Below, in pieces: positions 2,969 to 62,566 of a stretch of DNA of 64,000 nucleotides (positions are counted from its first letter, which is position 1; each line of letters begins with the position of its first letter). Below the pieces are notes generated by a model. That model saw only the letters and a program-made list of their open reading frames with translations, did no database searches and was not told where the DNA came from. A program made the position numbers and the translations under genes. This stretch comes from Pelagomonas calceolata (Eukaryota; Sar; Pelagophyceae; Pelagomonadales; Pelagomonadaceae), in assembly GCA_918797485.1 (NCBI GenBank), contig CAKKNE010000002.1, forward strand, positions 3,996,501 through 4,060,500, in the 5' to 3' direction.

Positions 2969-2991
2969 GCTAGTGTCTTACTTTCGCTAGC
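2969..2991 (+). promoter_or_regulatory. CTAG promoter element, canonical copy
   Basis: GCTAGTGTCTTAC is followed by TTTC and GCTAGC. It lies in the short divergent region, 117 bp from the minus-strand ATG at 2851 and 75 bp from the plus-strand ATG at 3067. It matches at least eleven other copies in this window. Confidence 0.7.
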
Positions 2992-3066
2992 TAATTATTT
3001 TGGCGGCTTACTAAGGCCAGCATAAGGCGCCCAACTGCACGCCAGCGCTGCATCGACGCTCCTTGC

Positions 3067-4074
3067 ATGCACAAACACCTGCTCGCCATGGCCGCTGCTG
3101 TGCAAGCTAGGGCCTACCACATCGGCGCGCCCGGCAGCAAGTGGGGCCCGGCCGAGCTGTCGCAGTGGCGCGCCGAACACATCAAGTCGAGACCCTACGA
3201 CGACGACGTCGTCAAGGTGCTGGATTCCTTAAGGGATGAGTACGACGTCATCGAATATGGTACATTAACCTACGACGGCGTCTCCCACAAGCTCTACGCC
3301 GCGAGAAGCAAGGACTGGAACAACCGACCGAAGGTGCTCGTGACGGGCGGCGTTCATGGGTATGAGACGTCGGGTGTGCATGGTGCTTTACGACTGCTAC
3401 AGACCAAATGCAAGGACTACGCTGAGAGAGGCTTAGATATACTGGTAGCCCCATGCGTCTCGCCCTGGGGCTACGAGCATATTCAGAGATGGAATTATGA
3501 TGCCGTGGATCCTAATAGATCATTCAAACGGAATGACCCGGATGCTTGCGGCTCGCAGGAAGCGAGGGCGCTAGTAAACTTGGTCAGAAATCATGGCAGT
3601 GACGGCTGGGCCTGCCACATCGACCTGCACGAGACGACGGACACGGACGAGTCCGAGTTCCAGCCGGCCAAGGCCGCGCGCGACGGTGACGTTTATGAGG
3701 AGGGCACCATCCCGGACGGCTTTTACTTGTGTGGAGATGAGAAGAATCCTCGCTTGGAGTTCCAACGAGCCGTTATTAAAGGTGTGTCTGACGTAACGCA
3801 CATCGCGCCGGCGGACCCCGACGGCACCATCATCGGCTCTAAGGTAGTAGCCGACGGCGTGATCCTCTACGACTACACGGCATTGGGTCTCTGCGGCGGC
3901 GTGACCGACGCGCCGCTCACGACCACCACCGAAGTGTACCCCGACTCGGCGAAGGCGACGGCCGAGGAGTGCAACAAGGCGCAGGTCGAGTCCGTGCTCA
4001 GCGCTTTAGACTTTCTGCTCGCGGAGCGGTCCTGGGGGCCGGCTGTTAAAGCGCTCGGCGGGGGGATGCCATAG
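3067..4074 (+). CDS. M14-family zinc metallocarboxypeptidase-like protein
   Basis: The 335-residue protein carries the full M14 zinc and catalytic pattern. His97 and Glu100 are in VHGYETSG and His188 in HIDLHETTD (zinc ligands). Asn150-Arg151 are in DPNRSF (substrate carboxylate binding) and Glu289 in TTTEVYP (catalytic base). Enzymes of this fold remove C-terminal residues or deacylate amino acids; the short N-terminal region and compact length resemble the AstE/ASPA-like branch rather than digestive carboxypeptidases. Substrate is unknown. ATG 3067 is the first start; MAAAVQ at 3088 is an alternative. No clear signal peptide is seen, so it is probably cytosolic. Confidence 0.85.
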   Translation: MHKHLLAMAAAVQARAYHIGAPGSKWGPAELSQWRAEHIKSRPYDDDVVKVLDSLRDEYDVIEYGTLTYDGVSHKLYAARSKDWNNRPKVLVTGGVHGYETSGVHGALRLLQTKCKDYAERGLDILVAPCVSPWGYEHIQRWNYDAVDPNRSFKRNDPDACGSQEARALVNLVRNHGSDGWACHIDLHETTDTDESEFQPAKAARDGDVYEEGTIPDGFYLCGDEKNPRLEFQRAVIKGVSDVTHIAPADPDGTIIGSKVVADGVILYDYTALGLCGGVTDAPLTTTTEVYPDSAKATAEECNKAQVESVLSALDFLLAERSWGPAVKALGGGMP

Positions 4075-4120
4075 TGTAATTGTATTATATTTCTGTGACT
4101 CGGTGTGCGTCGACGACGCC

Positions 4121-4134
4121 GTGTCGATGGCGTG
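4121..4134 (+). repeat. Copy of the dispersed GCGTCGATGGCG motif
   Basis: GTGTCGATGGCGTG lies 46 bp after the stop of the M14 gene and just before a CTAG element. It is one of about a dozen copies of this core in introns and gene tails of the window. Confidence 0.5.
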
Positions 4135-4146
4135 TTTTTTTCGTTT

Positions 4147-4171
4147 CTAGTATGTATGTTGATACGCTAGC
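4147..4171 (+). promoter_or_regulatory. CTAG promoter element, TATG/GATA variant
   Basis: CTAGTATGTATGTTGATACGCTAGC has the same two outer CTAG words and total length, but with TATGT and GATA inside, closely like the copy at 50246. It lies 190 bp upstream of the SLC35 gene. Confidence 0.5.
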
Positions 4172-4360
4172 TTCCAAAAGTCGGCGCGTCGGCCCGCGGC
4201 ATTAATTGGCTGCACAAACACCTTCAGATCGGATCGCGGCAGGGGCCACACATTGCTGCGTTTGCTGTGTGCGGTATCAGTAATTGGCTGGTGGCAGATA
4301 GTCTTCCTGTGCCCACAAAAAAGGTGTATGCCCAGGGAGCGCTCCCCACCAGCAAACAAG

Positions 4361-5359
4361 ATGACATCATCGGACAGAGCGAACCTGCTGGACAAAGACG
4401 AGGAAATAGCGACGCCGGCGAAAAAACCAACAATCACGACGAAGAAGCTAGCATTATCAATAGGCGGCGTCTTCGTGCTCTACGTTTTACATGATGCATT
4501 ACAAGAACGGGCCTTCCGCCAGCCGGGCTTTAGATTTGGCTGGTTCATGACGTTGATAGAAATAGTGGTCGTTTCTACATGCGCATTTATGTTCGAGTGG
4601 GGCGCGCCGCCAGATCCCACGGTAGTGTCGGAAGAGTCCATGCGCACGATTAGGATGTGTGTTGGTGGTTTAGCGCTGTGTCTAGCCACCTCACAAGGCA
4701 CGGGCAGCGCCGCGTTGAATTATGTGCACTACCCCGTGAAGGTCGCCTTCAAGTCCTCGAAGCTCGTGCCAACCATGATCTTCGGCATACTGCTGACGCG
4801 GAAGACCTTTTCATTCCTCGAATACGGGGCGGCCTTGCTCATGTGCTGCTCGTTAGCGGGTTTGTCGTTGGCCGATAGACGGGCGTCTTCTGATGAAGAG
4901 GCCGAGAATTTGCCCCTTGGTGTCATGTTGCTGATGACGGCGGTGTTTGCGGACGCTTTAGTACCGAACCTCCAGGAGAAGTGCCTCAAAGAACTCAAAT
5001 ATCCGGTGGGGCGGATGATCGTTTATTCTAATGCCGGGTGTGCCGCGTTGGTGTTGCTCTACTGCTCGGCGACCGGTGAATTAACAATGGCTTTGAAGTG
5101 GTGCGCCTCCAATACGGAGGGCAGCGCGTTTCTGTTCTTACAGGCCTGTACGTCTTATATGGGGTTAAGGTGCTACCTGGTCGTGGTCAAGGAGCTTTCT
5201 GGTGTGGCGGGCGTCGTCACGACTTCATTAAGGAAGGTCGTGACGTTGATTTTGTCCTTTTTATTATTCGAGAAGCCCTTTACCCAAGGCCACGCCTGGT
5301 CCTTCGCCGTGCTGTTCGCGGGCGTCGGTCTGGCCACGTACGCGAGGCAGGTAAAGTAG
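4361..5359 (+). CDS. SLC35-type nucleotide-sugar or PAPS transporter
   Basis: The predicted product (about 332 residues from ATG 4361; an in-frame ATG at 4328 would add 11) is a polytopic membrane protein with roughly eight to ten hydrophobic segments. The stretch LNYVHYPVKVAFKSSKLVPT in the first half matches the diagnostic region of the SLC35B group, which carries PAPS or UDP-sugars into the Golgi/ER lumen in exchange for nucleotide monophosphate. The second half has the expected FFLQ/FLFLQACTSYMG and FEKPFTQGHAW segments. It ends 12 bp before the convergent dehydrogenase remnant. Exact substrate cannot be read from sequence. Confidence 0.85.
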   Translation: MTSSDRANLLDKDEEIATPAKKPTITTKKLALSIGGVFVLYVLHDALQERAFRQPGFRFGWFMTLIEIVVVSTCAFMFEWGAPPDPTVVSEESMRTIRMCVGGLALCLATSQGTGSAALNYVHYPVKVAFKSSKLVPTMIFGILLTRKTFSFLEYGAALLMCCSLAGLSLADRRASSDEEAENLPLGVMLLMTAVFADALVPNLQEKCLKELKYPVGRMIVYSNAGCAALVLLYCSATGELTMALKWCASNTEGSAFLFLQACTSYMGLRCYLVVVKELSGVAGVVTTSLRKVVTLILSFLLFEKPFTQGHAWSFAVLFAGVGLATYARQVK

Positions 5360-5371
5360 TTTTGTATATAC

Positions 5372-6097
5372 TTAGGGGTCGTAGGCTTCCTTGCGCGCCG
5401 CGCCGGCGTCGAGCGCATCCGTCCGCGTCATGGGCCCGACCGGCGGCAGCTGCGCACACATGTGTTCTAGAGTGTCGGCCGTCGCGTCGTACTTCTGGGC
5501 CTCGGCGTAGTTGAGGTGGGGTCTAATTTCTAGAACGGTCTCGGCGCCCTGGACGCCGACGACGGTCGGGATCGAGAGGAAGCACTCGCGCGTCGGGTCC
5601 TTGACCGAGACTGGTAGCACTGCTTTTCTATCGAAGAGGATCGCGTCGACCTGTGCGCAAATCAACCGGTGAGTCGAGAAGCGCCGAAATTTGACTTGTG
5701 CACTGGGCGTCGGACGATCGTCGCCGTCGCGTTGGCCACGCCGTAGGCCGTGTACTTCTTGCGGTTGATGATCTCGTAGGCCTTGTGGCCGACATCATAT
5801 TCCAGCTTCTCGAGGTTGATCGCCTTGACGCCCGGGAACTCGAGCAAGGGTCGCCCGCCGATGTTGCCCACGGAGTAGGCCGAGAACTGGCTGTCGCCGT
5901 GCTCTCCTAAGACATTGACGTGGACGTCCGACGCGTGCACGCCTAGCCGGTGCCCGAGCTCCACGCGCAACCGCATCGTATCTAGGACCGTGCCCGAGCC
6001 GAAAATTGCGCCCTCCGGCAGATCCGGGAGCAGCTTAGCGCGCGCCGCGCAGCCTGAGGCGGCGGCTCGCGGCCTGGAGAAGGCGTCGCGTGGCCAT
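5372..6097 (-). pseudogene. Lactate/malate dehydrogenase C-terminal half; NAD-binding half missing
   Basis: Minus-strand exons encode the catalytic half of an LDH/MDH-family enzyme. GSGTVLDTMRLR carries the Asp-Arg pair, GEHGDSQFS the catalytic His, and there is the terminal helix domain. A 65-bp intron (5651-5715) restores TIVDAILFD. Upstream, only about 20 codons of a mitochondrial-type presequence (MATRRLLQAASRR, ATG at 6097) are found, in a different frame. The 140-150 residue Rossmann domain with its GxGxxG motif is absent. The 60 bp between presequence and catalytic half cannot hold it, and the next 300 bp upstream already contain a promoter element. Either a deletion broke the gene, or the assembly lost a piece. 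I see no way this encodes a normal dehydrogenase. Confidence 0.6.
5651..5715 (-). mobile_element. 65-bp introner (intron-forming DNA element) in LDH
   Basis: Read on the minus strand the intron starts GTCCGACGC and ends GCGCACAG, and the next exon starts GTCGACGC. The repeated GTC(C)GACGC fits an 8-bp target duplication with one extra base. Inside it, the left end CAGTGCACAAGTCAA and the reverse complement of the right end CTGTGCGCAAATCAA form a terminal inverted repeat (12 of 15). The right end GGTTGATTTGCGCACAG agrees at 14 of 17 positions with that of the introner ending at 23232. Confidence 0.75.
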
Positions 6098-6319
6098 GGT
6101 CTTGTAGTCTGCGGTCTTGTCGTATGCAGTACGCGGAGCGGCGCTCAAAACAAGACCAGTTTTAGATGGCTGGCCAGGAGGAAAATAATCTGCTAAGTGT
6201 GGTCTGAGGGCCGCGTCCAATTCGCGAAGCTCAGCGGACACGAGGCGCCAAACGAAGAGGAATGCTACTTCAAACGCCCCAAACACGAGCGCTTTGATGG
6301 CTTGGTGGTAGGGAACCGA

Positions 6320-6343
6320 GCTAGCGGCCTGTAAGACACTAGC
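6320..6343 (-). promoter_or_regulatory. CTAG promoter element, canonical copy (reverse orientation)
   Basis: On the minus strand it reads GCTAGTGTCTTAC, then AGGCC, then GCTAGC. It sits 184 bp upstream of the ATG at 6527 and upstream of the leftward dehydrogenase remnant. Confidence 0.7.
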
Positions 6344-6526
6344 AAACCAGGCGCCGTCGTCGATCGTGCTGCGAACGAGCGCTAAACATATAGCAGTGCC
6401 AAAAGAATAGCCCATTTGTCACGCCGACGAAGCGAGATCATCTGCTCACGAAGAGAGTGCAAGCGCACGGGCGGCTGCACCTATCAAGCCTCAGCCAGCA
6501 GCAAATCCGAAAATCGACGCGGAGTT

Positions 6527-10555: not shown

Positions 10556-11857
10556 CTACTCGAGCTTCGCCGGCGCCAAATGAGAGGCCTCGAGCGGCTC
10601 CCGCGTCCTCAACAGGTACTGTTTCGGCCCGTCCGCCGTCGCCGCCGTGACCGCCACGCCGGCCTTCGTTTTCACTAAACTCATCTTCTCGGACAGGGCG
10701 AAATTCAACACGACCTTGCCGACGTCGTTGCGCACGACGACGCGCGCCGCTCCCGTCGTCTTGTGCCTCGTAATTCGCAGCTGTCCCTTGCCGAGGTCGC
10801 GCCACTGGGGCTTTTCTCCTTCCGGTTTGTCGTATCGACGTAACGCGCACCGACTCTCGAAGGCTGTTGTTTCGTCACCATCATCAGCCTTCGCGACCGC
10901 CACCCGTTCTTCCTTGGGCATCGCGTCGTCTTCCTTTGATGATGGTGCGGGCGCCGGTGCTCCCCCAAAGTTGAACGCGCTCGTGGATGGTGGGGCGGCG
11001 CCGAAGCTGAAGGCCGGTTTTGGCGCGTCAGCTTTAGGAGGTGGCGCGCCGAAGTTGAACGCCGGCTTCGGCGCCGCCTCAGGTTTAGCTGGCGCGCCGA
11101 AGCTGAAGGGCTTTGAAGCCGGCGCCGGCGCCGGCGCGGCCGGGAAGGCGAAAGGCTTTGATGCTGCGGGCGCGCTCGGCGCCGCGACGGGCGCGCTGCT
11201 CTCCAACTTCGCCACGTGGGCCAGGTAGTCGCGCACGCCGGCCGTCCAGGGCGTCGCGGGCTTGTTTTGGGCCTGCCTTCTCACCCACTTGAGGAAGGCC
11301 CGGTTGCACGCCTCGAGCTTGTCCGCACTAGACTTAATGATGGGCGTCTCGGCCATCGGTTTTGTTGCGTTAGAAGGCGACGCGAGGAAGGACGAGCCAC
11401 CGCCGAAAGCTGATGACGGTGCCGTCGGCGCCGGCGCTGGGGCGCTGATGAAAGAAGCGAACGGGTTGCCTCCGGCCGGCTTCGGAAAGCTCAATCCTGA
11501 AGACTTCTGGCCCGGCGCCGGCGGCGGCGCCGTCAGCTTGACGTTCGCGAAGATGCCCGCGCCCTTGGCGCCGGCCCCGATGCCTTCCATTGCCACGTAA
11601 CCCTGCTTCGGCTTTGCGGCTACTGTTGGTTTAGTACCAGCGTCTAAGGCTGGAGGCGCCTGCATCTGGGGCGTGCTCTTCGATTTGAAGCGGCCACTTA
11701 CGGACACGATGCGCCTCTTCCGCAGTTTTTCTTGGGAGGCGCGCTGGAACGTGCCGGCCTCGACGACCTCGTCATCCTCGGCTTCCGCTTCTTCTCTACG
11801 TTGCTGGGCGTTCGTGTTGCGGCGCTTGCCGCCGCCGCCTTGCGGGCGGTCGGACAT
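10556..11857 (-). CDS. NUP50/Nup2-like FG nucleoporin with Ran-binding domain
   Basis: The 433-residue protein begins with a basic segment (GGGKRRNTNAQQRREEAE) and a region resembling the importin-alpha-binding part of NUP50 (GTFQRASQEKLRKRRIV). Its middle carries repeated FG-type motifs in Ala/Pro-rich linkers (KPFSFGAP, AFNFGAPPP, AFSFGAAPP, AFNFGGAP). The last 115 residues form a Ran-binding domain (ESRCALRRYD ... WRDLGKGQLRI ... RVVVRNDVGKVVLN). NUP50 works on the nuclear side of the pore to release import cargo from importin-alpha with RanGTP. A CTAG promoter element lies 190 bp upstream. Confidence 0.9.
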   Translation of the reverse strand: MSDRPQGGGGKRRNTNAQQRREEAEAEDDEVVEAGTFQRASQEKLRKRRIVSVSGRFKSKSTPQMQAPPALDAGTKPTVAAKPKQGYVAMEGIGAGAKGAGIFANVKLTAPPPAPGQKSSGLSFPKPAGGNPFASFISAPAPAPTAPSSAFGGGSSFLASPSNATKPMAETPIIKSSADKLEACNRAFLKWVRRQAQNKPATPWTAGVRDYLAHVAKLESSAPVAAPSAPAASKPFAFPAAPAPAPASKPFSFGAPAKPEAAPKPAFNFGAPPPKADAPKPAFSFGAAPPSTSAFNFGGAPAPAPSSKEDDAMPKEERVAVAKADDGDETTAFESRCALRRYDKPEGEKPQWRDLGKGQLRITRHKTTGAARVVVRNDVGKVVLNFALSEKMSLVKTKAGVAVTAATADGPKQYLLRTREPLEASHLAPAKLE

Positions 11858-12046: not shown

Positions 12047-12070
12047 GCTAGTGTCTTACCTTCCGCTAGG
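12047..12070 (+). promoter_or_regulatory. CTAG promoter element, canonical copy
   Basis: GCTAGTGTCTTAC, then CTTCC, then GCTAGG. It stands upstream of the NUP50-like gene (start 11857) and behind the 3' end of the next minus-strand gene, so here it can serve only one gene. Confidence 0.7.
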
Positions 12071-12114: not shown

Positions 12115-13077
12115 TCAGTTCTGCCGGTTCTTGATCGCGTCGGCCGCGACAGGGTCGACCTGGTAGGCGAGGGCGTGGAGCTCGTCGATCTTCGTCTGGA
12201 GCGCGTTCACAGTGAGCGTCAGCGGGTTCACGAGGTCGTCATGCACGTCCTCGAGCTCCTCGGCGGCATCCGCTGCCTCGGCGGTGGCGGCGGCGGCGGC
12301 GGCCGACGCCGCGGCCGCGACGGCGTCGGTGCGGTCGCGCGCCCCTTCGACGGCGTCCTTCTCCTCCTTGACGCGCTTCAGAGTCGATGACTGCTGCTCA
12401 TCGTGCGCGTCCCGCAGCGCGTTGCGCTTCTTCGCGGGCGGCGAGGCGTCGCCGTCGCACAGATCAACGACGTCGTCGCCGGCGAGCTGGCGCTTGAGCG
12501 ACGCGTTCTCGGACTGCAGTCGCGACGCGTACTCGGCGAGGGGTCCGAGTTCTTTCAACGCCTGCTGGGCGTATGACTTGCCGACGTCCGAGCCATTTGC
12601 CAGAAGCGCCGAGAGCGCCTCGACGCCGCCGGCCTCGACGATCGCGGTGCTAGTGTCCATACGCCCACAACAACGGGTGAAGCACCACAACGCTTTTGCG
12701 GTCTCCTCCTGGTCGTCGGCCGAGCCGCCTGAGAGGCGCCCCACGAATCGCTGAGCGATCGCGGTGCAGTGGGCGACCAGGGCGCCGGCGTCGGCCTTTT
12801 TCTTCCTCCGCTTGCCCGGCGGTTCGCGCCGCGCCGGCGCCGCAGCCTCGGCCTGTGCGGCGCTCGCGTCGCGGCGCTTGCGCCGCGGGCGCTTGGCGTC
12901 TAGATCAATTTTTTTCACGTCGCCGACGGCGACCTCTTCCCGCGCGCCGGTGCTCTCCCAGCGCACGAGGACCGTATCGTCTCCTGTGCGCACGGGCCGC
13001 GCGACATACGCCTGATGTTGGTGGTATCCTACCAGGACCTTCTCGTCGACTGCGTAGAGCACTGGTGCAGCCTCCAT
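12115..13077 (-). CDS. Tudor/chromo-like and armadillo-like nuclear protein
   Basis: The 320-residue protein starts with a small beta-barrel-like module (VLYAVDEKVLVGYHQHQAYVARPV ... VLVRWESTGAREEV), typical of Tudor/chromo-barrel folds that read histone or arginine marks. A basic nuclear localisation-like stretch follows (KRPRRKRRD, KRRKKK). An armadillo-like pair of helices covers about residues 110-185 (AIVEAGGVEALSALLANG). VVDLCDGD resembles a SUMO-interaction motif. The C-terminal third is a helical, Ala-rich coiled coil. A chromatin role is inference from the fold combination. Confidence 0.65.
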   Translation of the reverse strand: MEAAPVLYAVDEKVLVGYHQHQAYVARPVRTGDDTVLVRWESTGAREEVAVGDVKKIDLDAKRPRRKRRDASAAQAEAAAPARREPPGKRRKKKADAGALVAHCTAIAQRFVGRLSGGSADDQEETAKALWCFTRCCGRMDTSTAIVEAGGVEALSALLANGSDVGKSYAQQALKELGPLAEYASRLQSENASLKRQLAGDDVVDLCDGDASPPAKKRNALRDAHDEQQSSTLKRVKEEKDAVEGARDRTDAVAAAASAAAAAATAEAADAAEELEDVHDDLVNPLTLTVNALQTKIDELHALAYQVDPVAADAIKNRQN

Positions 13078-13217
13078 GTGACTCGAGTGCCTCGTGCGCG
13101 CCCGAACCGCTCGTTTTTGTTTACCGCTTCGACTTTCAGCTGTGCAGAGCGTCTGGAAACCAGCCCAGCTGCGTCGTCTGTTGCCAGGAGGGTCACAAGC
13201 AAAGACCCAAAGAGAAA

Positions 13218-13239
13218 CTAGCGGCTGTAAGGCACTAGC
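13218..13239 (-). promoter_or_regulatory. CTAG promoter element (reverse orientation)
   Basis: On the minus strand it reads GCTAGTGCCTTAC, then AGC, then CGCTAG. It is 141 bp upstream of the gene starting at 13077, and lies behind the 3' end of the following gene. Confidence 0.65.
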
Positions 13240-15691: not shown

Positions 15692-15958
15692 AACTGCGCT
15701 CTTGCGATCTGTCTCGCGCTCTTCTTGTAGTCTGTCTCACCCTCCGGCGAGCTTGTTGGCAGCGTCTAGGGTGCGCTTTCACCGCAAGATCAACAGGTGC
15801 TCTGTGAGAGCCTTGCTTCAACGAGAGCTGTGCAGCCGGGATTTCGCTGCCGGTCGAGGAACTGAAAAGTTTGAGTAATGCGAAGGCTTTTGGCAATCTA
15901 CACTAGCCGAAGGCGCAGCAATCGCACAAGATCAGCGAGGATTATCGAGAACGCTTGC

Positions 15959-15981
15959 CTATCGTAATGTAAGGCTCTAGC
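15959..15981 (-). promoter_or_regulatory. CTAG promoter element, partly degenerate (reverse orientation)
   Basis: On the minus strand it reads GCTAGAGCCTTAC, then ATTAC, then GATAG; the second CTAG has become ATAG. The flank CTTG before the first GCTAG is shared with strong copies. It lies between divergent starts at 15691 and 16132. Confidence 0.5.
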
Positions 15982-16131
15982 AAGCGGCAAAAAAAGCTGC
16001 TGCTCTTGTCGTGCACTTGTCGTGCGCACGTCTGCTTTGAGCTGCTTTGAGGCGAGTAGAGTTCGTCAGAGATACGTTCGCGCCCAAGCCCTTCGCTGCG
16101 CGAGAGCACAGAGCCGTCTCAAAGGCCGTGC

Positions 16132-17088: not shown

Positions 17089-18056
17089 TCACGCGGCAAG
17101 GGCTTGCGCCGGCGCCGGCGAGGGCTCGTCGACCTTGCGCCGCTTGGCGAGGTCGGGCAGGTCCGCGTTCGACACGACGGGGCCGTGCAGGGCGCGCGGC
17201 GGCGACGGCGGCGTGTTGTTGCCGCCGACGACGTGCAGGGTGTCGGACGACACGCAGGCCGGCAGGCCGGCGTCGGGCGACACGCCTCGAACAAATGATT
17301 CGTCCGAGTCGTCGGAGCGCGCGCGCTTGCGCTCCATTTCGATGGGCGCGCGCGCCGCCGGCCGCTCGGCGACGCCGTCCAACAACTTGGCCGCCGCGGT
17401 TAATAACGCGAGCTGCGGCCGCGCGTCCAAGTTCGGCACGGCGGCGGCCCGCGCCAGACTCACCTCGTCGTCGGACGACACTTTTCTAGCTGGTGGCGGC
17501 TGCGCCGCCCTTCTTAGTTTTTTAAAGTACTTCTGCGCGTGGGAGCGGACCTGGATGACCGTGCGCGTGCCGACGTGCTCCGCGATGCGGATCCACTTGC
17601 GGCGGCCGTACTTCTCGAGGCCGTCGACGAAGCGCGCGTGCTCCTGGGCGGACCAGCGGCCTGCGTTGCGGGTTCGCGTAACGGTTTCGCCCGGGCGCGG
17701 CTATCGGTGTGTGTTTGAGGTGTGGAGCACCCCCGCCGTCGCGCAGGCGCGCGCGAACCCGTCGGTGTGTGTGTGTGTCGCGTTTGGCAGCGCGCGCGAA
17801 ACGAAACGACGCGGTTTTCTCTCAGGCGTCAAAAACGCGACTCGGGAGATATACCGGATTCGAGCTGCGCCTCGTCGGTGGAGCTGTTGCGGCTCAGGGT
17901 CAATTGCGGTTGGATTTTGGAGCGACGACAGGTGCTTACATCCTCGGCGCTGCGCCCGAGGTGGTCGGCAGCATCTTGCTTCAGCTCCCGATTATCCTTG
18001 GCTAGCTCCGCGCCTGCGTGTCCCTCGCTTGTCGTGCTGCAGTATGTTGTGGCCAT
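17089..18056 (-). CDS. SHAQKYF-class MYB transcription factor (two exons)
   Basis: Exon 1 (18056-17855) and exon 2 (17660-17089) join across a 194-bp intron (17661-17854, GTATAT...ACGCAG). The phase-1 join recreates the start of the MYB repeat, SGRWSAQEHARF. The repeat continues GLEKYGRRKW and ends in VRSHAQKYFKKL, the hallmark of single-repeat REVEILLE/LHY/KUA-like regulators. Exon 1 has a helical segment rich in Asp/Glu. Exon 2 ends with a Ser/Pro-rich acidic tail and two basic clusters (ERKRARSDDSD, LAKRRKVDE). Plant relatives bind promoter DNA in clock and growth control; targets here are unknown. ATG 18188 would extend exon 1 by 44 residues. Confidence 0.85.
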
Positions 18057-18419
18057 GAACCCGCTGGTGCTCTGGTCGAACGCGCTATGTACAGAGATGC
18101 GTCCTTCGCGTAGATAGGAGGCTGGATGAGAGGCTGGCGTCCTGACGCCAGTGGGCTCTGCACGGGAGGCCGACTTCAAACACAGCACGGCGTGACCCCC
18201 GCCGCCCAGGCCTCTGAAAATACTCCATCACGAAACCCTTGTACCCTTGTTTGCCCGTTCTCGGCTCTCTGAGTTCAACGCGGGAGAACGCGGGCCAAGA
18301 TGCGGCGTGCGCGGGATAGGCTACGGACTCGACGGTGAAGACCCGATGCCGGATCCGGAACTTTAGAGGCCTGGTTCTAGTGCATCCATATCCAAGGGGC
18401 TAGCACCCGCCTGCGAATA

Positions 18420-18438
18420 CTAGCGTCTTTGACGCTAG
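18420..18438. promoter_or_regulatory. Perfect hairpin variant of the CTAG element
   Basis: CTAGCGTCTTTGACGCTAG is an 8-bp perfect inverted repeat around TTT, with the same outer CTAG words and an inner GTCTT. A second loose CTAG...GCTAGC pair lies at 18377-18404. Both are within 365 bp upstream of the MYB start at 18056. Confidence 0.4.
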
Positions 18439-18572
18439 GGGTGTCCTGGGGGACACCCGCAGACATAACCAGGCACGTACATGGTAATCCCAATATTGAG
18501 CGACCAAAGGTCCTCTAGAGTGACCAGGCCGGGGTCAGCTCGACAGAGGGGTTCAAGAGGGGCGGGTGTATA

Positions 18573-19016
18573 TCAAAAATCGGTCGATCGGACGCCCCTA
18601 CCATCGACGGTCAAAGCTGCGCCGTCTTCCAACGCCCCCAAGGCCAGATCGAGCGCCGGCACGCCGAGCGCATCGAGCGCGCCCGCGTCGATGGGCGTCA
18701 GGACCGTTGCCTGAGGCGTCGATGGACGCGGCTTGATTAACCCCGACGGGACAACGACGTGATGAAAGTTGTAGGTCAGAGCACTCGCTAAAAAGCCATC
18801 CACCAGGGCCGGCACCGCCTCCCGAGCCGCCTCTCCCGAGCCTTGCGGGCCGCGGGGTACGGTTCCCAAGCGCAGCTCGCCCCCTCGCGAGCGCGCGCGG
18901 CGAGCGGCGTCCCCCGCACCTCGACGACGCCTACGCGACGCGACGCCATCGCACACCAAGAGACTAGGGAAGAGAGATATACACGCATTAATAGGGGGGA
19001 GAGAGGAGCCGCTCAC
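18573..19016 (-). CDS. Doubtful small protein-coding region
   Basis: A minus-strand frame of 147 codons ends ...LTYNFHHVVVPSGLIKPRP ... LDLALGALEDGAALTVDGRG. An ATG in another frame at 18946 (MASRRVGVVEVRG) overlaps it and runs to 18788, so the true model may use both frames through a short intron or a frameshift. I do not recognise a family. The Arg-rich 5' part is probably not translated as shown. The 3' end is only 4 bp from the Rieske stop on the same strand. Confidence 0.3.
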   Translation of the reverse strand: MSGSSLPPINACISLFPSLLVCDGVASRRRRRGAGDAARRARSRGGELRLGTVPRGPQGSGEAAREAVPALVDGFLASALTYNFHHVVVPSGLIKPRPSTPQATVLTPIDAGALDALGVPALDLALGALEDGAALTVDGRGVRSTDF

Positions 19017-19019
19017 TCA

Positions 19020-19799: not shown

Positions 19800-19916
19800 G
19801 AGGTCCTCAGGCGGGCCCGCCTTACTCCGCTACCCTACTCTTGAGGTTGCTGGCTCCCCCCAGCGCTCAAATTCTGCCCGATTGAGGCCTTCCTCGAGCA
19901 GCCAGTTTTTGGTAAG

Positions 19917-19938
19917 GCTAGTATCTATCTGACGCTAG
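19917..19938 (+). promoter_or_regulatory. CTAG promoter element, TATC variant
   Basis: GCTAGTATCTATCTGACGCTAG lies between divergent starts of the Rieske gene (19799) and the fusion gene (20238). Outer words and spacing match the strong copies; the core is ATCTATC. Confidence 0.5.
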
Positions 19939-20237
19939 ATTAGAAAGAAGTCTGAAAAGGGGACCGGAGCCGTCCGTAGCGCCTTCTTATCGATCCTCGC
20001 CGGCAAGAACGGTCGGCTGGCAGGAATTGCCCGACTTGGCATGTCGCCTCCGCAGTCGGCTTTAGCAGTGCCGTGCGGGACGTGCACACACTTATCGCTG
20101 GGTCTGACGCGCGTTTTAGGACTACCGAACCAGACTCTCAGCGCTGCGAACGATAACGGCATCGATAGCGCGCGCCACAGCAGCAGAGGCCCCTGAGTGC
20201 TGCAGTGCTCAAATTTGTGCGGCGCGCGGACGTAAAG

Positions 20238-33031: not shown

Positions 33032-33147
33032 GTGTGCGTGCTGCGCACTACTCGAGGTAGTCAGCGTCCACGCGTGCGGCGTTTGGAAGGTCTAGAGCCG
33101 GAGTTATCGTCGATTGCAGCAGGTGCGACGGGCTCCTGGAGAGCTTT

Positions 33148-33170
33148 CTAGTGCCTTACAGCACGCTAGC
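33148..33170 (+). promoter_or_regulatory. CTAG promoter element, CCTTAC form
   Basis: CTAGTGCCTTAC, then AGCAC, then GCTAGC, in the 242-bp divergent gap. It is 117 bp from the DUS2 start and 104 bp from the start at 33274. Confidence 0.7.
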
Positions 33171-33273
33171 GCTGGGGGGTTTGACATCCGCGGAGAGCAG
33201 GGCAGACACCGGCGGACGTCCAAAGGCATTGAGCAACGTTTCTAAGCCTTGCGGAGCGGCCGCACCCTAAGCT

Positions 33274-39318: not shown

Positions 39319-39341
39319 GCTAGCGTTTAGTAAGACACTAG
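39319..39341 (-). promoter_or_regulatory. CTAG promoter element, canonical copy (reverse orientation)
   Basis: On the minus strand it reads CTAGTGTCTTAC, then TAAAC, then GCTAGC. It lies between divergent ATGs at 39127 and 39415. Confidence 0.7.
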
Positions 39342-39414
39342 AATCGAAGCAAGGAGCTAAAAGGAAGTGCATTCAGCCATAGATTGCATCCAAGGCGCGA
39401 GGCGCACCGCAGCC

Positions 39415-43188: not shown

Positions 43189-43208
43189 GCTAGTGTCTTA
43201 CAGCTAGC
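43189..43208 (+). promoter_or_regulatory. CTAG promoter element, canonical short copy
   Basis: GCTAGTGTCTTACAGCTAGC, preceded by GCTT as in other copies, lies between divergent starts at 43040 and 43376. With only 20 bp it is the shortest copy. Confidence 0.7.
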
Positions 43209-47606: not shown

Positions 47607-47997
47607 TGAAACCGCTCGCTATATCAAGCGGCGTAAAGGCGCGGAGATGTTGATGGGCGATGGAAATGGCCCGCGGCGGCGGCGCGGGCGGGACTGGCAG
47701 GTCTGCGAGTCGCGCGCGGCGGTCTGTGAGGCGTGTGGAGCGTGGCCTATTGCTTCACCTTGTCGACGGAGACAACTAAATGTGAAGCGAGCACCGTGTG
47801 CCCAGCAGGTCTCTCTGTCCCACCGTGGGTGTCTGCCTCCTGGGAAACCTGGGTTTTGGGGCCCGCGGGCTAGCGGTCGTAAGACACTAGCAAGCAAGCC
47901 GGCGGTCTTCTCGTCGTTACGAGGTCGCGCGGGCGCCACAAGAGGTAACAACACAAGCCAGCGCTGGTTCCTGGACCGCTCTACACAACTACAAACC
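47607..47997. other. Upstream region of the RING gene
   Basis: These 391 bp hold the strong CTAG element at 47869 and no coding signal that I can support. Confidence 0.5.
47869..47891 (-). promoter_or_regulatory. CTAG promoter element, canonical copy (reverse orientation)
   Basis: On the minus strand it reads GCTAGTGTCTTAC, then GACC, then GCTAGC, preceded by GCTT. It is 107 bp upstream of ATG 47998; here there is no divergent partner. Confidence 0.7.
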
Positions 47998-49038: not shown

Positions 49039-49051
49039 TAAGAATTCAAGC

Positions 49052-49316
49052 TTAGGCCCCCTCCTGTGGCGTTTCGCGGGCGCTGAGCGCGGCTTGCGCG
49101 TGTCGCACGCGGTCTTCGGTCCCCGCCGTGAACGGGTGTGAGCTTCCGAGGAAGCGCCGCGCGACCCGTACCGTGTCCTCGAGTGTCGCCACGGCCTCCC
49201 GGAGATCGTCGAGCGTGGCGTCGTCGTCGTGATATGGCGCCCCGTCCCCGTAAAAAACGTCAATTTCTCTAGGGCCCCAGGAGTCGTAATAGCGGTCTCG
49301 TCGGACCCCATACTAC
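49052..49316 (-). pseudogene. Fragment of a TPR protein (kinesin-light-chain-type repeat)
   Basis: A minus-strand frame without ATG reads ...REIDVFYGDGAPYHDDDATL, then DDLREAVATLEDTVRVARRF and LGSSHPFTAGTEDRVRHAQA before its stop at 49052. The RRFLGSSHPFTAGTEDRVRHA pattern is the last repeat of the large TPR families common in these algae. No upstream exon is found in the relic region behind it, so I read it as a truncated gene copy. Confidence 0.5.
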
Positions 49317-49329
49317 CCCGCCGATAGTC

Positions 49330-50300
49330 AACTACAAGTATATCGCCTATACATTATGAGAAGGGTACTTTTGGCTGCCCACGCTCGGGACGTGAACATC
49401 TTGATCTGGACCTCGCGTAAGTCCGTCGGTCATGGAAAAAATGATCGCGTTATGGTCCATGGTGAAGGTACACGCGCTGATGGTCGCAGGTTTGGGTATG
49501 AAGCCCGATTAGGCGAGATGTTGGGCCCGCGAGACCGTCGACCCGCGCCGAGCATCTTGGGGTCTCGGAGCAATGTAGTAGGCAGTCAGGCCGGTTATCT
49601 GGCCCGTCCCGCAACCGAAGCGCCTGAAAAGCAAATTTACTTTATAAAACACCGGTCTGGGGCCTTTCTGGTGCTCCGTCTCCGCACCGTCGACCGCGGA
49701 GAACGGGCAAGTCGGTCGATTGTGAATAGAACAACGGCGTTATGGTCCATTTGGATGGTGGCGTCGCTGATACTCGCAGGTTCAGGATTGTGGCTCGTTT
49801 ATATATAAACGCGGGGTCGCGAAGTTGCCGATCCGCGCGGCTCTAACGGAATATCTAAAATAGCTCAGTGGGCGCTGATGCGGGTTAGATGGACTCTACC
49901 ACTCACAAACGGAAGGAAACGAACATAAACTCGGGAGTTGTCTGGTAGAGTTCTTCTCCCGCCCTCCGAGCGCGGGCCGTCGGCTCCGGTTCCGTCGAGT
50001 GTGTATGAAAACTGAGCTGGAGTTGATATAATGTTCTATTTGGACGGTGGATGGCGGCGTCAATCGTTGGTGTACTTTGAGGCGCCGTAAGTGTCATCCG
50101 CGAATGTCGCGGGCGGTGCCTTCCGGGAGGCGCGAGGGTATGTTCCCGGGCCGCTACTCTAAAATATTTGGTCTCGGCGAACGACTAGGATGTGTTATGA
50201 ATTTGGGTTATTCTTTTGACGCTATTGAGGCGTATCCTTGAATTTGCTAGTATGTCGATATACGCTAGCTCGGCTTGGCTCTTCCGTTGTATAAACGTGG
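49330..50300 (+). repeat. Decayed tandem repeat, three units of about 290 bp
   Basis: Related blocks lie near 49445, 49735 and 50030. Each holds TTATGGTCCAT or a diverged form (AATGTTCTAT), then GGTGG and, in the first two, GCTGAT..TCGCAGGTT..GG. The blocks before them, GTCCGTCGG, GTCGGTCGA and TTCCGTCGA, are also in register. The region is poorer in GC than its surroundings and has no intact gene; a 150-codon frame at 49356-49808 spans two units but has no recognisable domain. Confidence 0.55.
50246..50269 (+). promoter_or_regulatory. CTAG element, TATG/GATA variant
   Basis: GCTAGTATGTCGATA then TACGCTAGC. It is nearly the same as the copy at 4147. No intact gene follows on either side, so this copy is probably a leftover of the relic locus. 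Confidence 0.45.
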
Positions 50301-50361
50301 GGCCCGGAACAGAATAATCTCGCACCTTGGTACATGGGACTACTTGGGGGCGGGCTCGCGC

Positions 50362-50400
50362 AGCCATCGACGCCATCGACGCGATATATATATATATACA
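50362..50400 (-). repeat. Doubled GGCGTCGAT motif and AT microsatellite
   Basis: GCCATCGACGCCATCGACGCG (minus-strand GCGTCGATGGCGTCGATGGC) is directly followed by about eight TA steps. It lies just past the 3' end of the RPC3 gene. Confidence 0.5.
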
Positions 50401-50428
50401 TTCCTAGCTATACTTACCCTCGTCGTCG

Positions 50429-51961: not shown

Positions 51962-52161
51962 GCTGCTGTCGCGCGGCTGGCGTTAGCGGTGGCCGCAGCG
52001 TGTGTCGCTGCAGAGAGCACTTGCCGTGCGCGCCTTGCTGGGAGTCCTAGCGCGCGGCTTTTTGCCTTGCTCTGGTCCAGGACGAGCGATGCGACTTCTA
52101 GGCTAGCGTAACGCCCAGAATGGCTGCTGCAAGCCCTGAAATGCAGCTCCGCCAATCGCTT

Positions 52162-52185
52162 GCTAGTGTCTTACACGACGCTAGC
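52162..52185 (+). promoter_or_regulatory. CTAG promoter element, canonical copy
   Basis: GCTAGTGTCTTAC, then ACGAC, then GCTAGC, preceded by CGCTT. It lies between divergent starts at 51961 and 52336. Confidence 0.75.
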
Positions 52186-52335
52186 GCAGTTCGAGGGTTC
52201 AACTTACTCAGCGTGGCGTGAGAGCGTTGTTCCCACGCTACAGCAGCGCCAGGGATCGCCCATACAGCTGTGCGAACGATCATCCATTGTTCAGCATCAC
52301 AACAGCTCAACAACAGCGTTAGACTTGCCACCACA

Positions 52336-53295
52336 ATGCGAGCAATGACGCTGCGCTGCATCCTCGCGGTGACAGCGGCATTGGCACCGCATCATCATGA
52401 CAACGGCCGAACCGCGCGGAGGTTGATCACAGCTGAAGCGAGCCCTGGAAAAGCTCCGCGCGCGGCCGACTCAGACCGCCGCGGCGCGTTGCACCGGTTC
52501 GCGGCCGGCGCAACCGCCGTCGTAGCGCCGCGAGCCTATGCCAAGCCGCCGCCGACGCTGCAGGGCGCCTACGCCTCGTTCAACGCCGGCAAGTACGACG
52601 AGGCCTTGACGGCGTTCGAGGCGCTGACGACCGCGGACGACAACGACGCGACGGCCTGGGAGGGCAAGGGCACCGTGGAGCTGATCCTCGGCTCCCAAAA
52701 AGCGACGCTCGGCGTGGAGCCCACGGGCACCGCGAAGGAGCTCTGCGAGCGCGCGGTGGCGTCGCTGCAGCGGTCGGCGTCGCTCTCCGACGACGCTCTG
52801 ACGCTCAACAACCTAGGCAACGCCCAGGCCGTCTTGCTGCGCTGGAGCGACGCGGCCGAATCGTACCAGAAGTCGTTGGATGCGGCGCTGGCGTCGAAGC
52901 GCGACCGCGGCCTTGCTTCGATCCCCGCATCCAATAGAGCGCAGGTGGCGATCGAGCTTGGCGATTTGAAGGACGCGGCGCGGCGCACCGAAAATCTGTT
53001 GCGGAGGGACCCCAACTTCGTCGACGGCCGCGCCCTGCTCGCGGCGATCCGCTACAAGCTGGGCGACGCGAACGGCGCCGAGGAAAGCTACGCGCAGCTC
53101 TGCGTCCCGGGCGTAAAGTCGCAGCGCGGCGCGGTCTTCACCGACGGCATCGGCGGCAGCGACTGGTGCGAGCTCTACGCGTCGACCGACGTCGTCAGGG
53201 GCCGCTGGACGCCGACGACCATCGGGGCCTACGAGGCGTTTCTGAAGAGCAGGGACCCGCGGGCCCGGGTCGCCGCGAATACCAGAGACTTATAA
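52336..53295 (+). CDS. Plastid-targeted TPR protein, probably thylakoid lumen
   Basis: ATG 52336 begins a bipartite leader: a hydrophobic signal (MTLRCILAVTAALA), a basic/Ala transit region (RTARRLITAEASPGKAPRA), and then RRGALHRFAAGATAVVAPRAYA. The last part is a twin-Arg, hydrophobic segment ending AYA, typical of a Tat lumen signal. The mature part has about five TPR-like helix pairs (GAYASFNAGKYDEALTAFEA; TLNNLGNAQAVLLRWSDA). The C-terminus ends in a conserved-looking Trp-containing stretch (VVRGRWTPTTIGAYEAFL). Plant relatives help assemble photosystems. Complex-plastid targeting fits a red-lineage alga. Confidence 0.75.
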   Translation: MRAMTLRCILAVTAALAPHHHDNGRTARRLITAEASPGKAPRAADSDRRGALHRFAAGATAVVAPRAYAKPPPTLQGAYASFNAGKYDEALTAFEALTTADDNDATAWEGKGTVELILGSQKATLGVEPTGTAKELCERAVASLQRSASLSDDALTLNNLGNAQAVLLRWSDAAESYQKSLDAALASKRDRGLASIPASNRAQVAIELGDLKDAARRTENLLRRDPNFVDGRALLAAIRYKLGDANGAEESYAQLCVPGVKSQRGAVFTDGIGGSDWCELYASTDVVRGRWTPTTIGAYEAFLKSRDPRARVAANTRDL

Positions 53296-57033: not shown

Positions 57034-57125
57034 CGTTGATTCTATGCTATTCCTGCATGCTTACGTTGCATTGCATGGGCTGCGCACCGATGCTTGCGAT
57101 GCGATGCATCTTGCATCGGTGGCTT

Positions 57126-57148
57126 GCTAGTGTCTTACCGGCACTAGC
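57126..57148 (+). promoter_or_regulatory. CTAG promoter element, canonical copy
   Basis: GCTAGTGTCTTAC, then CGG, then CACTAGC, preceded by GGCTT. It lies between divergent starts at 57033 and 57327. Confidence 0.75.
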
Positions 57149-57326
57149 GCATGCGAGAGACCTCCGAACACTCCTCCGCGAAAGGAGATCTCCAAGGCCC
57201 CACGACGAGAGGCAGGTCTCCCACGCCGCGAAGCCAGCAGCCCGCCCGTTAGCTGATCAGCTTCGCGCTGTGGGCAGCGCCGAAGGGCACGCAAACGCTG
57301 AAGGGCAGCGCAAACGACCACCCACG

Positions 57327-60213: not shown

Positions 60214-60670
60214 CGTGGGGTGCCCTTTTGCGCTGCCGGTCGAACAGGAGGCGGGAGCGGTTTCTGTGGAGTATTCGTGTGCGTCCGTGCGTCGAAGGCG
60301 TCCGCGGGGAGGGCGTTTAATTTGAGTGGGCAGCCGGACGGAGAGCAAAGGCCGGCGGTTTCGTACTCGGGTGCGCGTGCGGAGCAGGTTGGGTCAAGTT
60401 CTCGTCGAACGGCGTTCAAGGGCCGGCTGGGAGTAATCCTACGCTGCGTTGAAACCCGTACATTAGCTTGCCACTGGGGCCACGCGGCGCAAATAACCAT
60501 AGACAACCAACTCGCGGCTTTACGCGTGTGTCTTGCAGTTATATTAGTTGTGCGACACGAATTGCAGCCGAAGTTTTGCTCGGAAAGCATCGCTAAGCAC
60601 AGCATCACCTCTGGGCCACTGCCAGCACAGCAGTCGAACAACGCGAACACATCGAAGAACGCATCGAAAC
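60214..60670. other. Divergent promoter region without a CTAG element
   Basis: This head-to-head region of 457 bp is notable for lacking any recognisable CTAG...GCTAGC element, unlike most others in the window. No other motif is supported. Confidence 0.4.
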
Positions 60671-61414
60671 ATGGCCCGCGAAGCATTAAAAAAGATCGTC
60701 GTCTTCGGCGGCAACGGCTTTGTGGGAAGCGAGGTCTTAAAACGACTCAGCACCAAGCCGACGGTGCAAGCCGTCAGCGTGTCGCGGCGAGGAGCCGCGC
60801 CGGGCCACTGCGCCGACTTCGCCGATAAGGTCGAGTGGCGGACCGGCGACTGCCTCGACAAAAAGACCTACGCCGACGCCCTCGAGGGCGCCGCGGCCGT
60901 TGTTGTAAGCGTAGGGAGCCCACCACTACCCGGTGATGTAGAAGCCGCGCGTCGAGCGAACGGAGAGACGAATGTCAAGGTCATCGAGGCCGCGATGGAA
61001 GCGAAGGTCGGCCGCGCCGTCGTCGTCGGCGCGACGATGCCGCCGTGGCTCGACAGGGTCGCGGAGGGTTATGCCTTGGGCAAGCGGGACGCCTTCGAGG
61101 CGCTTGGAGGGTTCGCCCTGGGCGGCGGCGCCGTCGTCGTGAAGCCCAGTGCGATCTACGGGACGCGACATACGGAGTCAGGCTACCCCATACCGCTGGC
61201 GCCGGTCATGGCGCCGCTGTCCTACGCGCTTAGAATAGGAAGACCGGTGACGGGCTTCGTGACGGGCCTCGCGCCGTCGTTGCTCGACGGTCTCTTGGAG
61301 CCGCCGGTCCCCGTGCACGCCGTCGCGCAGACGGTCGTCGACGCGTGCCTGGAGGAGGAGTATGCCGAGGGCTTCGTCGCGCTCGGCGTGGAGGAGATCC
61401 TCAAACGCTGTTAA
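60671..61414 (+). CDS. NAD(P)-binding epimerase/dehydratase-like protein
   Basis: The 247-residue protein starts with a Rossmann fold (KKIVVFGGNGFVGSEVLKRL, motif GGNGFVGS) and continues with AVVVSVGSPPLP, NVKVIEAAMEAKVGRAVVVGA and KPSAIYGTRH. It is an atypical short-chain/NmrA-like or NDUFA9-like member, because the usual Tyr-x-x-x-Lys catalytic pair is not evident. A role in redox sensing, or as a complex I-like accessory subunit, is possible. There is no clear targeting peptide. Its stop is 88 bp from the convergent hydroxylase-like gene. Confidence 0.75.
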   Translation: MAREALKKIVVFGGNGFVGSEVLKRLSTKPTVQAVSVSRRGAAPGHCADFADKVEWRTGDCLDKKTYADALEGAAAVVVSVGSPPLPGDVEAARRANGETNVKVIEAAMEAKVGRAVVVGATMPPWLDRVAEGYALGKRDAFEALGGFALGGGAVVVKPSAIYGTRHTESGYPIPLAPVMAPLSYALRIGRPVTGFVTGLAPSLLDGLLEPPVPVHAVAQTVVDACLEEEYAEGFVALGVEEILKRC

Positions 61415-61502
61415 TTGTATATTTATGCGACCTTCTTCCGGTCCGCCCCGTCGTAGTATTTGGCATGGCGTGCGCGTCCCGCGGTTTGTCCCGCAAAACG
61501 CG

Positions 61503-62357
61503 CTACTGCGCGAGGTTCTTCGTGGGGTAGCGGTGGTGCGTCTCGTGCGCCCGCGTCGTATATTCAAAGCCCCAAAACCTAAACTGGACGTCGTAGGCCG
61601 TGTGGTTCAGGAGCGCTAGGATAGCGTACAGGATGAAGTGCACGAAGATCGTCAGGGCATGCACTGATGTTGTGTGACCAACAATGACCAAAGTGATGTA
61701 CAAACAGCTCAAGCCAAGCACCTGCTCGATGGGGTGCTCGTTGCCGGCGTCCGCATAACCCCGCTCCGGCAGTTGTTGTCTATGGTGGTGCTTGTGGACA
61801 TACGGGTAAAACCACGGCCGGTGCATCAGCAAGTGGAGCGGCGCGTAGAAGGCGTCGTCGATCGCGAAGATTAAGTAGAGTGCTGGTAATGTATTCAGCA
61901 TTCCTAGGTCATTTAACCTCCAAGCAAAGTTCGGGGACGACAGCACGATATCGATCACGTGGCACGTGAACTGCCACTCCACCACCGAATTGATGCACAA
62001 AAACAAATAGTCGATCCACTCCAACTTCACGAGGCCCCGATTGCCCGTGTTGATGCGGTACATCATCATTTTATTGTTATAAGCGCGGTCTAGGAGTACG
62101 AGTACGATATGATCGAGGAGCTGCAATCCTAAACATTTCAGGGCCCACCCACACCAGTAGTACTCTCTCGATAGGTTCAGGGGGTTCGTCAATTTCTCAA
62201 AACTTTCTCGTCGCTTACTTCGCAGCAACAGGAGCAGTCCGACGAAAGCCGCGAAGGACTGGAAGCTCTTCTTGTGCTTGCGGAGCTGGTCCTCGACTAT
62301 CGTAGATCTTCGTCGCGCCGTGGGCTGGGCGAGGCTCTTCGGGGGGGCGACGCACAT
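61503..62357 (-). CDS. Fatty-acid-hydroxylase/sterol-desaturase family membrane enzyme
   Basis: The first ATG is at 62357 (MCVAPPKSLAQ). The 284-residue protein has about four hydrophobic segments and the three His clusters that bind the di-iron centre: HLLMH, HKHHHRQ and ETHHR (with HETHH). Family members oxidise lipid chains at the ER, using cytochrome b5 electrons (C4-sterol demethylation, C5 desaturation, fatty acid hydroxylation). The substrate cannot be told. The histidine boxes are complete, so activity is expected. Confidence 0.88.
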   Translation of the reverse strand: MCVAPPKSLAQPTARRRSTIVEDQLRKHKKSFQSFAAFVGLLLLLRSKRRESFEKLTNPLNLSREYYWCGWALKCLGLQLLDHIVLVLLDRAYNNKMMMYRINTGNRGLVKLEWIDYLFLCINSVVEWQFTCHVIDIVLSSPNFAWRLNDLGMLNTLPALYLIFAIDDAFYAPLHLLMHRPWFYPYVHKHHHRQQLPERGYADAGNEHPIEQVLGLSCLYITLVIVGHTTSVHALTIFVHFILYAILALLNHTAYDVQFRFWGFEYTTRAHETHHRYPTKNLAQ

Positions 62358-62542
62358 GCTTGCGGCGGCGTTTTGCGGCTGCCACGCCAATCTCGTTTGG
62401 AGCGCCGTCCGGGGCGTTAGTGTTGGTTGTTTCGCACTTGAGCCGTTGGTAGGTGTCGTGGCTGTCGTATACGCGGCTTAGATCGGCAGCGTCGCCGCTA
62501 GGGACGGCGGTAGAGCGGCGAAACGACTGCCACCTCGACTTC

Positions 62543-62566
62543 GCTAGCGGTCTGTAAAGACACTAG
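62543..62566 (-). promoter_or_regulatory. CTAG promoter element (reverse orientation, one-base variant)
   Basis: On the minus strand it reads CTAGTGTCTTTAC, then AGACC, then GCTAGC, with one extra T in the core. It lies between divergent starts at 62357 and 62880. Confidence 0.65.

Follow-up and report, generated by a model that had tools for sequence, protein, structure and literature searches.

Copies of the CTAG element in the window and in the genome

The stretch analysed here (the window) comprises 64,000 bp of the Pelagomonas calceolata assembly (C2:3996501-4060500). Its predicted genes are separated by 14 head-to-head, 11 tandem and 13 tail-to-tail gaps, of which the first two kinds hold gene starts and are referred to as promoter gaps. 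Copies of a two-box motif, here called the CTAG element, were found in 10 of the head-to-head, 5 of the tandem and 1 of the tail-to-tail gaps, in agreement with the head-to-head preference described in a first-pass annotation of the window. That annotation had interpreted the motif as the site of a DNA-binding factor shared by many genes, perhaps part of the core promoter and plausibly bound by a dimer.

Copies were scored using a weight matrix trained on a 244-kb sample consisting of the window and loci L009-L026. The consensus, from 50 first matches, was TTGCTAGTGTCTTAC (box 1), a spacer of 0-6 bp (modes 3 and 4) and CGCTAGC (box 2); first-order Markov sequences gave 0-5 matches of the box pattern in five trials. 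For the matrix, 49 of these matches were used, with 59693 in coding DNA excluded; it contains about 22.5 bits of information in box 1 and 10.7 bits in box 2 (about 33 bits together). The score threshold of 12 was picked after inspecting results at thresholds 6-25, across which promoter-gap counts drop just from 56 to 41. Loci L001-L008 (3 head-to-head, 2 tandem, 2 mis-called introns and 1 at an end) were excluded from all counts because they had been selected by the motif itself.

In the window, a scan for GCTAGTGTCTTAC with up to 2 mismatches gave 12 matches, where 0.60 were expected from 100 shuffles. Eleven were strong copies of the first-pass annotation and the twelfth was the weak match at 59693, inside a coding open reading frame (ORF), which was treated as chance. 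All 12 strong copies listed in the annotation were recovered (Table 1), eleven with no more than 2 mismatches in box 1 and the copy at 62543 with 3, as were its variants at 4147, 19917 and 50246. Its four degenerate forms divided: 18420 passed the threshold, 27646 was borderline (8.8), and 595 and 36268 fell under the matrix floor of 6. The distance of 30-315 bp from an ATG given there was about right, with copy centres at 87-355 bp in head-to-head gaps and 150-203 bp in tandem gaps (4147, 12047, 13218 and 47869), the exception being 18420, whose modelled downstream gene has its ATG about 785 bp away. The statement that no copy lies in coding or tail-to-tail DNA held for the strong copies and failed for the variant at 50246, which lies in a modelled tail-to-tail gap of 1.39 kb, one of two tail-to-tail gaps longer than 1 kb in the sample. 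This gap may contain a small gene or RNA missed by prediction.

Table 1. Positions, strands and matrix scores of the CTAG element in the window, followed by the copies of a dispersed repeat at other sample loci
Feature	Setting	Coordinates	Strand	Box 1	Matrix score
CTAG element	head-to-head gap 2852-3066	2969..2991	+	exact	42.9
CTAG element, TATG variant	tandem gap 4075-4360	4146..4171	+		18.3
CTAG element	head-to-head gap 5977-6526	6320..6343	-	exact	45.9
CTAG element	tandem gap, upstream of 10556-11857 (-)	12047..12070	+	exact	38.3
CTAG element	tandem gap, upstream of 12115-13077 (-)	13217..13239	-	1 mismatch	38.0
CTAG element	head-to-head gap 15692-16131	15958..15981	-	2 mismatches	30.3
CTAG element, degenerate	17644-19028 (predicted long intron, later tandem gap)	18419..18439	+		13.6, near threshold 12
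CTAG element, TATC variant	head-to-head gap 19800-20237	19917..19939	+		27.6
CTAG element	head-to-head gap 33032-33273	33147..33170	+	2 mismatches	39.0
CTAG element	head-to-head gap 39128-39645	39319..39342	-	1 mismatch	38.2
CTAG element, no spacer	head-to-head gap 43041-43375	43189..43208	+	exact	40.9
CTAG element	upstream of RING-finger ORF	47869..47891	-	exact	44.2
CTAG element, TATG..GATA variant	tail-to-tail gap 49039-50428	50246..50269	+		25.5
CTAG element	head-to-head gap 51962-52344	52162..52185	+	exact	45.2
CTAG element	head-to-head gap 57034-57326	57126..57148	+	exact	40.4
CTAG element	head-to-head gap 62358-62879	62543..62567	-	3 mismatches	33.5
Dispersed repeat	sample loci	L009 4913, L011 2888, L014 8753, L017 2337, L018 7875, L023 3969, L026 1962			

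The element is about 23 letters long and contains two facing GCTAG words, the CTAG word starts of the two arms being 14-20 bp apart. Box 1 has GCTAGT and box 2 contains GCTAGC. Read as an inverted repeat, each arm of the consensus is GCTAGYG, in opposite orientation; the base after CTAG is T in the left arm in 58 of 63 copies and C in the right arm in 58 of 63, so the element is a dyad with built-in polarity. The earlier idea of a dimeric site is supported by the bases adjoining CTAG in the two facing arms and complicated by the near-constant difference between them. The inner part (TCTTAC) is asymmetric, and the frequent four-base spacer is approximately A[GT]G[CA], as judged by eye from the first 100 genome places listed for the strict pattern.

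Pattern searches over the whole genome covered 32,445,274 bases in 8 contigs; in the published genome of strain RCC100, 32.4 Mb of nuclear DNA are in six contigs, and the plastid and mitochondrion measure 90 kb and 39 kb (PMC9481584). The exact 13-mer GCTAGTGTCTTAC occurred 869 + 872 = 1,741 times on the two strands, and its reversed control word 0 times. With CTAG following 0-9 bp later it occurred 827 + 844 = 1,671 times (reversed: 0). The broad form CTAGTRYSTN{3,11}CGCTAG gave 2,187 + 2,102 = 4,289 matches versus 5 + 2 reversed, and the variant family CTAGTATGTN{3,10}CGCTAG gave 263 versus 1 in the control. In 10 kb each of the organelle DNAs, the top matrix score was 14.3 in the plastid (one match over the threshold) and 11.2 in the mitochondrion.

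Placement in promoter gaps

In the 244-kb sample, 63 copies reached the threshold. Head-to-head gaps held 30 of them, tandem gaps 28 and tail-to-tail gaps 1; the other 4, at sample ends, were left unclassified. The 187 kb of predicted coding DNA contained 0 copies (0.5 expected from a third-order Markov model, which gave 0.4 for head-to-head and 0.5 for tandem DNA). Copies occupied 30/48 head-to-head, 27/47 tandem and 1/48 tail-to-tail gaps (Fisher p 5e-13, promoter versus tail-to-tail). The tail-to-tail gaps are short (7.4 kb altogether), and per base their single copy compares with 8.6 expected (p 0.002). An equal spread through coding, convergent and promoter DNA, which the first-pass annotation had named as contrary evidence, was not seen. 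The 58 promoter-gap copies were distributed over 57 of 95 gaps, where length-weighted random throws filled a mean of 40 gaps and at most 54 over 20,000 trials; two copies shared a gap once, versus 12.6 such gaps expected. Among gene starts with a complete gap, 87/143 (61%) were served by a copy and 56 were not.

Copy-to-ATG distances were mostly 70-370 bp. In tandem gaps, 25/28 copies lay 100-370 bp from the downstream ATG (55% expected, p 5e-5), and in head-to-head gaps none lay closer than 70 bp to an ATG (8.9 expected); these distance limits were set after the distances were known. Relative to the gene, tandem-gap copies had the same orientation in 12 cases and the opposite in 16 (p 0.57, no bias). 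The element is thus placed in either orientation, as are general regulatory factor sites, and was not found in the fixed orientation of a directional core promoter. Poly-A/T tracts were not enriched in gaps with the element (0.79 per kb versus 0.70 without; tail-to-tail gaps 0.81).

Gene models were revised twice after the positions of matches were known. In the first revision, predicted introns longer than 450 bp were split into two genes, which released the copies at 47869 and 18420 and one in L022; that at 47869 had initially been inside a predicted 830-bp intron, and the likely ATG, judged by eye, is near 47995. As four strong matches still lay in predicted introns, these introns were inspected, and stop codons and new ATGs were seen. 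In the second revision, an intron rule independent of the motif was therefore applied to all introns, resulting in 7 splits and transferring the four matches to tandem gaps.

With matrix and gene model frozen, the scan was extended to six held-out stretches of 10 kb each (L110-L115). The 60 kb contained 10 copies, 5 in head-to-head gaps (5/11 gaps), 4 in tandem gaps (4/9) and 1 in a first intron after a 15-bp 'exon', which was taken as a mis-call. No copy was found in 46 kb of coding DNA or in the 11 tail-to-tail gaps. Occupancy was below that in the training sample (9/20 versus 57/95 promoter gaps) and specificity was equal.

Recurrence in a relative and the genes beside copies

Among bacterial and archaeal species genomes, a strict pattern hit four contigs, each belonging to a metagenome bin. 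One of them, L117 (NZGT01000013.1, labelled Spirochaeta), is collinear with P. calceolata C6:2236569-2246679 at 83-94% identity and so appears to be algal DNA that was filed wrongly and comes from a diverged lineage of Pelagomonas. It contains five copies, one per gap upstream of each of 5 ORFs; only the copy at 5352-5374 was selected by the pattern, and the other four are independent of selection. The gene model merged three of the ORFs via predicted introns, and the ORF calls were followed instead. Two copies (2198-2221 and 4290-4311) lie at the outer end of alignable blocks, which begin at 2199 and 4288, and their position relative to P. calceolata seems kept. In the other three contigs (L116, L118 and L119), the pattern-selected copy was inside a block of 96, 89 and 94% identity, respectively. 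L116 and L119 additionally contain ORFs of bacterial appearance, as judged by eye, and the four contigs seem misfiled or chimeric.

In the window, 19 ORFs beside copies were scanned against Pfam, skipping those with predicted introns or cut at the window end. Fourteen had a match over the cut-off, to unrelated families, including an RPC82-like RNA polymerase III subunit, tRNA dihydrouridine synthase, Ham1, a Nup50/RanBP1 protein, a nucleotide-sugar transporter, an Arf-like GTPase, a RING-finger protein and a fatty-acid hydroxylase. Ten ORFs picked as having no copy include EGF-like proteins, a U-box protein, ODAD1 and a PCI protein; the two lists demonstrate diversity and are not a tested difference. 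Sharing by functionally unrelated genes, another property of general regulatory factor sites, is therefore seen both in the 87/143 gene starts and in the 14/19 ORFs.

A second word, GGCWGCC, occurred at 2.1 per kb in head-to-head gaps, 1.1 in tandem gaps, 0.26 in coding DNA and 0.14 in tail-to-tail gaps. It was present in 25/38 promoter gaps without the CTAG element and in 17/57 with it (p 0.0007, uncorrected for the k-mer search that yielded the word), and may mark a second promoter class.

Candidate function of the element

The CTAG element probably serves as the site at which a single, sequence-specific general promoter factor of Pelagomonas binds. The shared-site interpretation of the first-pass annotation is favoured by the promoter-gap specificity, the empty coding DNA, the absence of orientation bias, the unrelated flanks (see below) and the recurrence in a diverged relative; its suggestion of a core promoter part, in the strict sense of fixed orientation, was not borne out in the tandem gaps. 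The site would be a bipartite inverted repeat, (T)TGCTAGTGTCTTAC-N0-6-CGCTAGC, with two facing GCTAGYG half-sites, both of which a dimer or a two-domain protein would read. Once bound, the factor would mark and open the promoter region from its middle, and transcription would then begin on either side of the site. In a head-to-head pair one copy would serve the two genes, in a tandem pair the single downstream gene. Protein binding, chromatin opening and starts outward of the element are what we infer from the sequence.

Several observations weigh against this reading. The constant T versus C difference between the arms, together with the variable spacing, misfits a simple symmetric dimer. At the threshold used, 38/95 promoter gaps had no copy, as did 11/20 in held-out DNA, and the element is therefore not universal. 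The variant at 50246 in a tail-to-tail gap breaks the promoter rule, and the copy in L003, a motif-selected locus, is merely 31 bp from the predicted ATG. The ab initio gene models, and with them the predicted coding DNA, are our own and were trained on the same DNA. In the relative, the other three of the five copies fall between alignable blocks, so kept position is supported for 2/5 only, and the search around 5352-5374 gave no match at the orthologous place, merely a 30-bp match on C3. The G+C content beside the site (0.55-0.60) is near the promoter-gap mean (0.61) and not under that of tail-to-tail gaps (0.57; coding DNA 0.66), so that the dip separates gaps from genes and does not mark the site. 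In favour of the reading, A equals T beside the site on the sense strand, and outward of it A exceeds T and C exceeds G; this hints that transcripts begin outward of the element, in a profile confounded by the nearness of the ATG.

Five alternative explanations were considered. A site for the factor of one regulon (e.g. growth, light or cell cycle), with a large but specific gene set, is rather unlikely: it would accommodate the 56 gene starts without the element and the greater frequency of GGCWGCC in promoter gaps that lack it, which suggests two promoter classes, but not the diversity of the adjoining genes (the polymerase subunit, nucleoporin, sugar transporter, Arf GTPase and others). The abundance, the high information content of both boxes and the limited range of ATG distances would also suit a strict core promoter element of the TATA, Inr or oomycete INR+FPR type, fixing the start in one direction. 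This is quite improbable in view of the missing orientation bias and the single copy between divergent genes in 30/48 head-to-head gaps, and oomycete core motifs favour the forward orientation and have no CTAG in the main text of their description (PMC3599244). It is very improbable that the element is a chromosome-organising or replication site (insulator, cohesin or origin binding) merely located in promoter gaps. Known architectural factors do have long bipartite, orientation-independent sites, one per gap, a description that fits the element; against this, copies are rare per base in tail-to-tail gaps and are tied to the downstream gene's ATG in tandem gaps.

Remnants of a small mobile element inserting in promoter gaps, the transposon origin that the first-pass annotation had set against its own reading, are largely refuted. 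Flanks of 58 copies (100 bp per side, ungapped) had a mean identity of 26% and a maximum of 40%, and flanking inverted repeats were not in excess (6-bp repeats in 11/63 copies versus 8.5 by re-pairing). The exception is in L011 (around 1583 and 3001), where two neighbouring genes share an identical 52-bp block including the element, bounded by TTGTCC and GGACAA; the DNA outside is unrelated, as are the neighbouring proteins (BLASTP E 0.64). The flank test overlooked this pair and would thus overlook other short shared blocks. Some copies also have another dispersed repeat, about 156 bp in length, in their vicinity. Hardly credible, finally, is a transcribed RNA element of the 5' untranslated region or a splicing signal. 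GTAAG on the minus strand resembles a 5' splice site, and GCTAGTG and CGCTAGC can pair with one G-U, but the orientation relative to the gene is random and the window and six loci gave no Rfam match over the gathering scores.

Sites of the yeast factors Reb1, Abf1 and Cbf1 work in either orientation. These general regulatory factor sites are found in nucleosome-free promoter regions of many genes, and lineages swap the factors (PMC2897762). The CTAG element is like them a sequence-specific site in the promoters of many genes; it differs in sequence, in its bipartite form of about 33 bits and in having one copy per occupied gap. Among stramenopiles, the oomycete motifs INR, FPR and DPEP are genome-wide promoter motifs without TATA; INR is YCAYTYY-like, INR+FPR occur in about 13% of genes, and the forward bias there has no counterpart here (PMC3599244). 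The heat-shock factor PITG_04701 of Phytophthora has the site TTCTAGAA, with CTAG at its centre, confirmed by electrophoretic mobility shift assay (PMC11267843). The Pelagomonas element lacks its TTC/GAA flanks, and that site lacks a second arm. In Toxoplasma gondii, the ApiAP2 protein TgAP2XI-5 binds the palindromic GCTAGC, over-represented in promoters (PMC4035076, PMC6631176). The same hexamer is present in the CTAG element; in Toxoplasma it is single and tied to a gene set, whereas in Pelagomonas the arms are inverted and occur at 61% of the gene starts sampled.

The lead candidate for the factor itself, guessed from the literature, is a protein that has two AP2 domains. The SPE2 site of the Plasmodium protein PfSIP2 is bipartite. 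PfSIP2 has two tandem AP2 domains, one of which suffices for binding, and is tied to subtelomeric heterochromatin (PMC6631176), unlike the CTAG element with its general promoters. The P. calceolata genome contains 27 AP2-domain matches (C1 to C6), 5 of which exceed the Pfam cut-off. Pairs of matches whose starts are no more than 300 bp apart occur at five places (C1:927014-927445, C3:427864-428268, C3:3207397-3207788, C3:3483267-3483704 and C5:1432792-1433214) and suggest proteins with two domains, which could recognise two arms. A bolder reading, which we hold tentatively and lean slightly against, is that most nuclear promoters are set by one two-armed, orientation-free site and a single lineage-specific factor (perhaps tandem-AP2), that a copy acts as a two-way hub for head-to-head pairs, and that the GGCWGCC class covers much of the rest. 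If this is true, promoter identity in Pelagomonas could be read from sequence alone.

A site of this length that is single in over half of the promoter gaps sampled, and missing from the coding DNA sampled, is unusually clear. It allows promoters to be called from sequence, provides a handle for isolating the factor and helps to correct gene models, as it pointed to merged ones; it also makes a case for asking how one lineage hangs most promoters on one factor. No such element appeared by title among the matches listed for pelagophyte and Aureococcus motifs, the two Pelagomonas papers searched by term had no 'promoter' or 'motif', and the literal box forms returned titles on diphthamide and on padlock-probe/rolling-circle assays. 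By these open-access searches, together with one on CTAG/GCTAGC motifs, the CTAG element seems to be new; its probable kind, a general promoter-factor site, is already known.

A viral source was considered and rejected. Two strict patterns had 0 matches in IMG/VR; a loose pattern gave 81 stretches with one match in each listed row, read as chance without a computed expectation. Re-scanning these 81 loci gave no clusters, with 69 scores over 14 in all and L066 having 2. The promoter motif reported for an Aureococcus giant virus is AAAAATGA-like and without CTAG (PMC5917014). Adenine methylation at CTAG, CTAGY and CYTAGC has been described for an Aureococcus giant virus, in whose genome CTAGG is rare (PMC12700378).

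The dispersed repeat listed in Table 1 begins with TGTTACGGTGCTAGGACTAGTGGGCGG and was detected in the 244-kb sample with up to 8 mismatches in 35. All seven sample copies (7/7) lay in tandem gaps and had the same sense as both genes; they follow the upstream stop by about 40-160 bp. The repeat had no Rfam match. Its exact 21-mer occurred 165 times genome-wide, and it is also present in the relative's contig L117 (299-455) at 80-88% identity.

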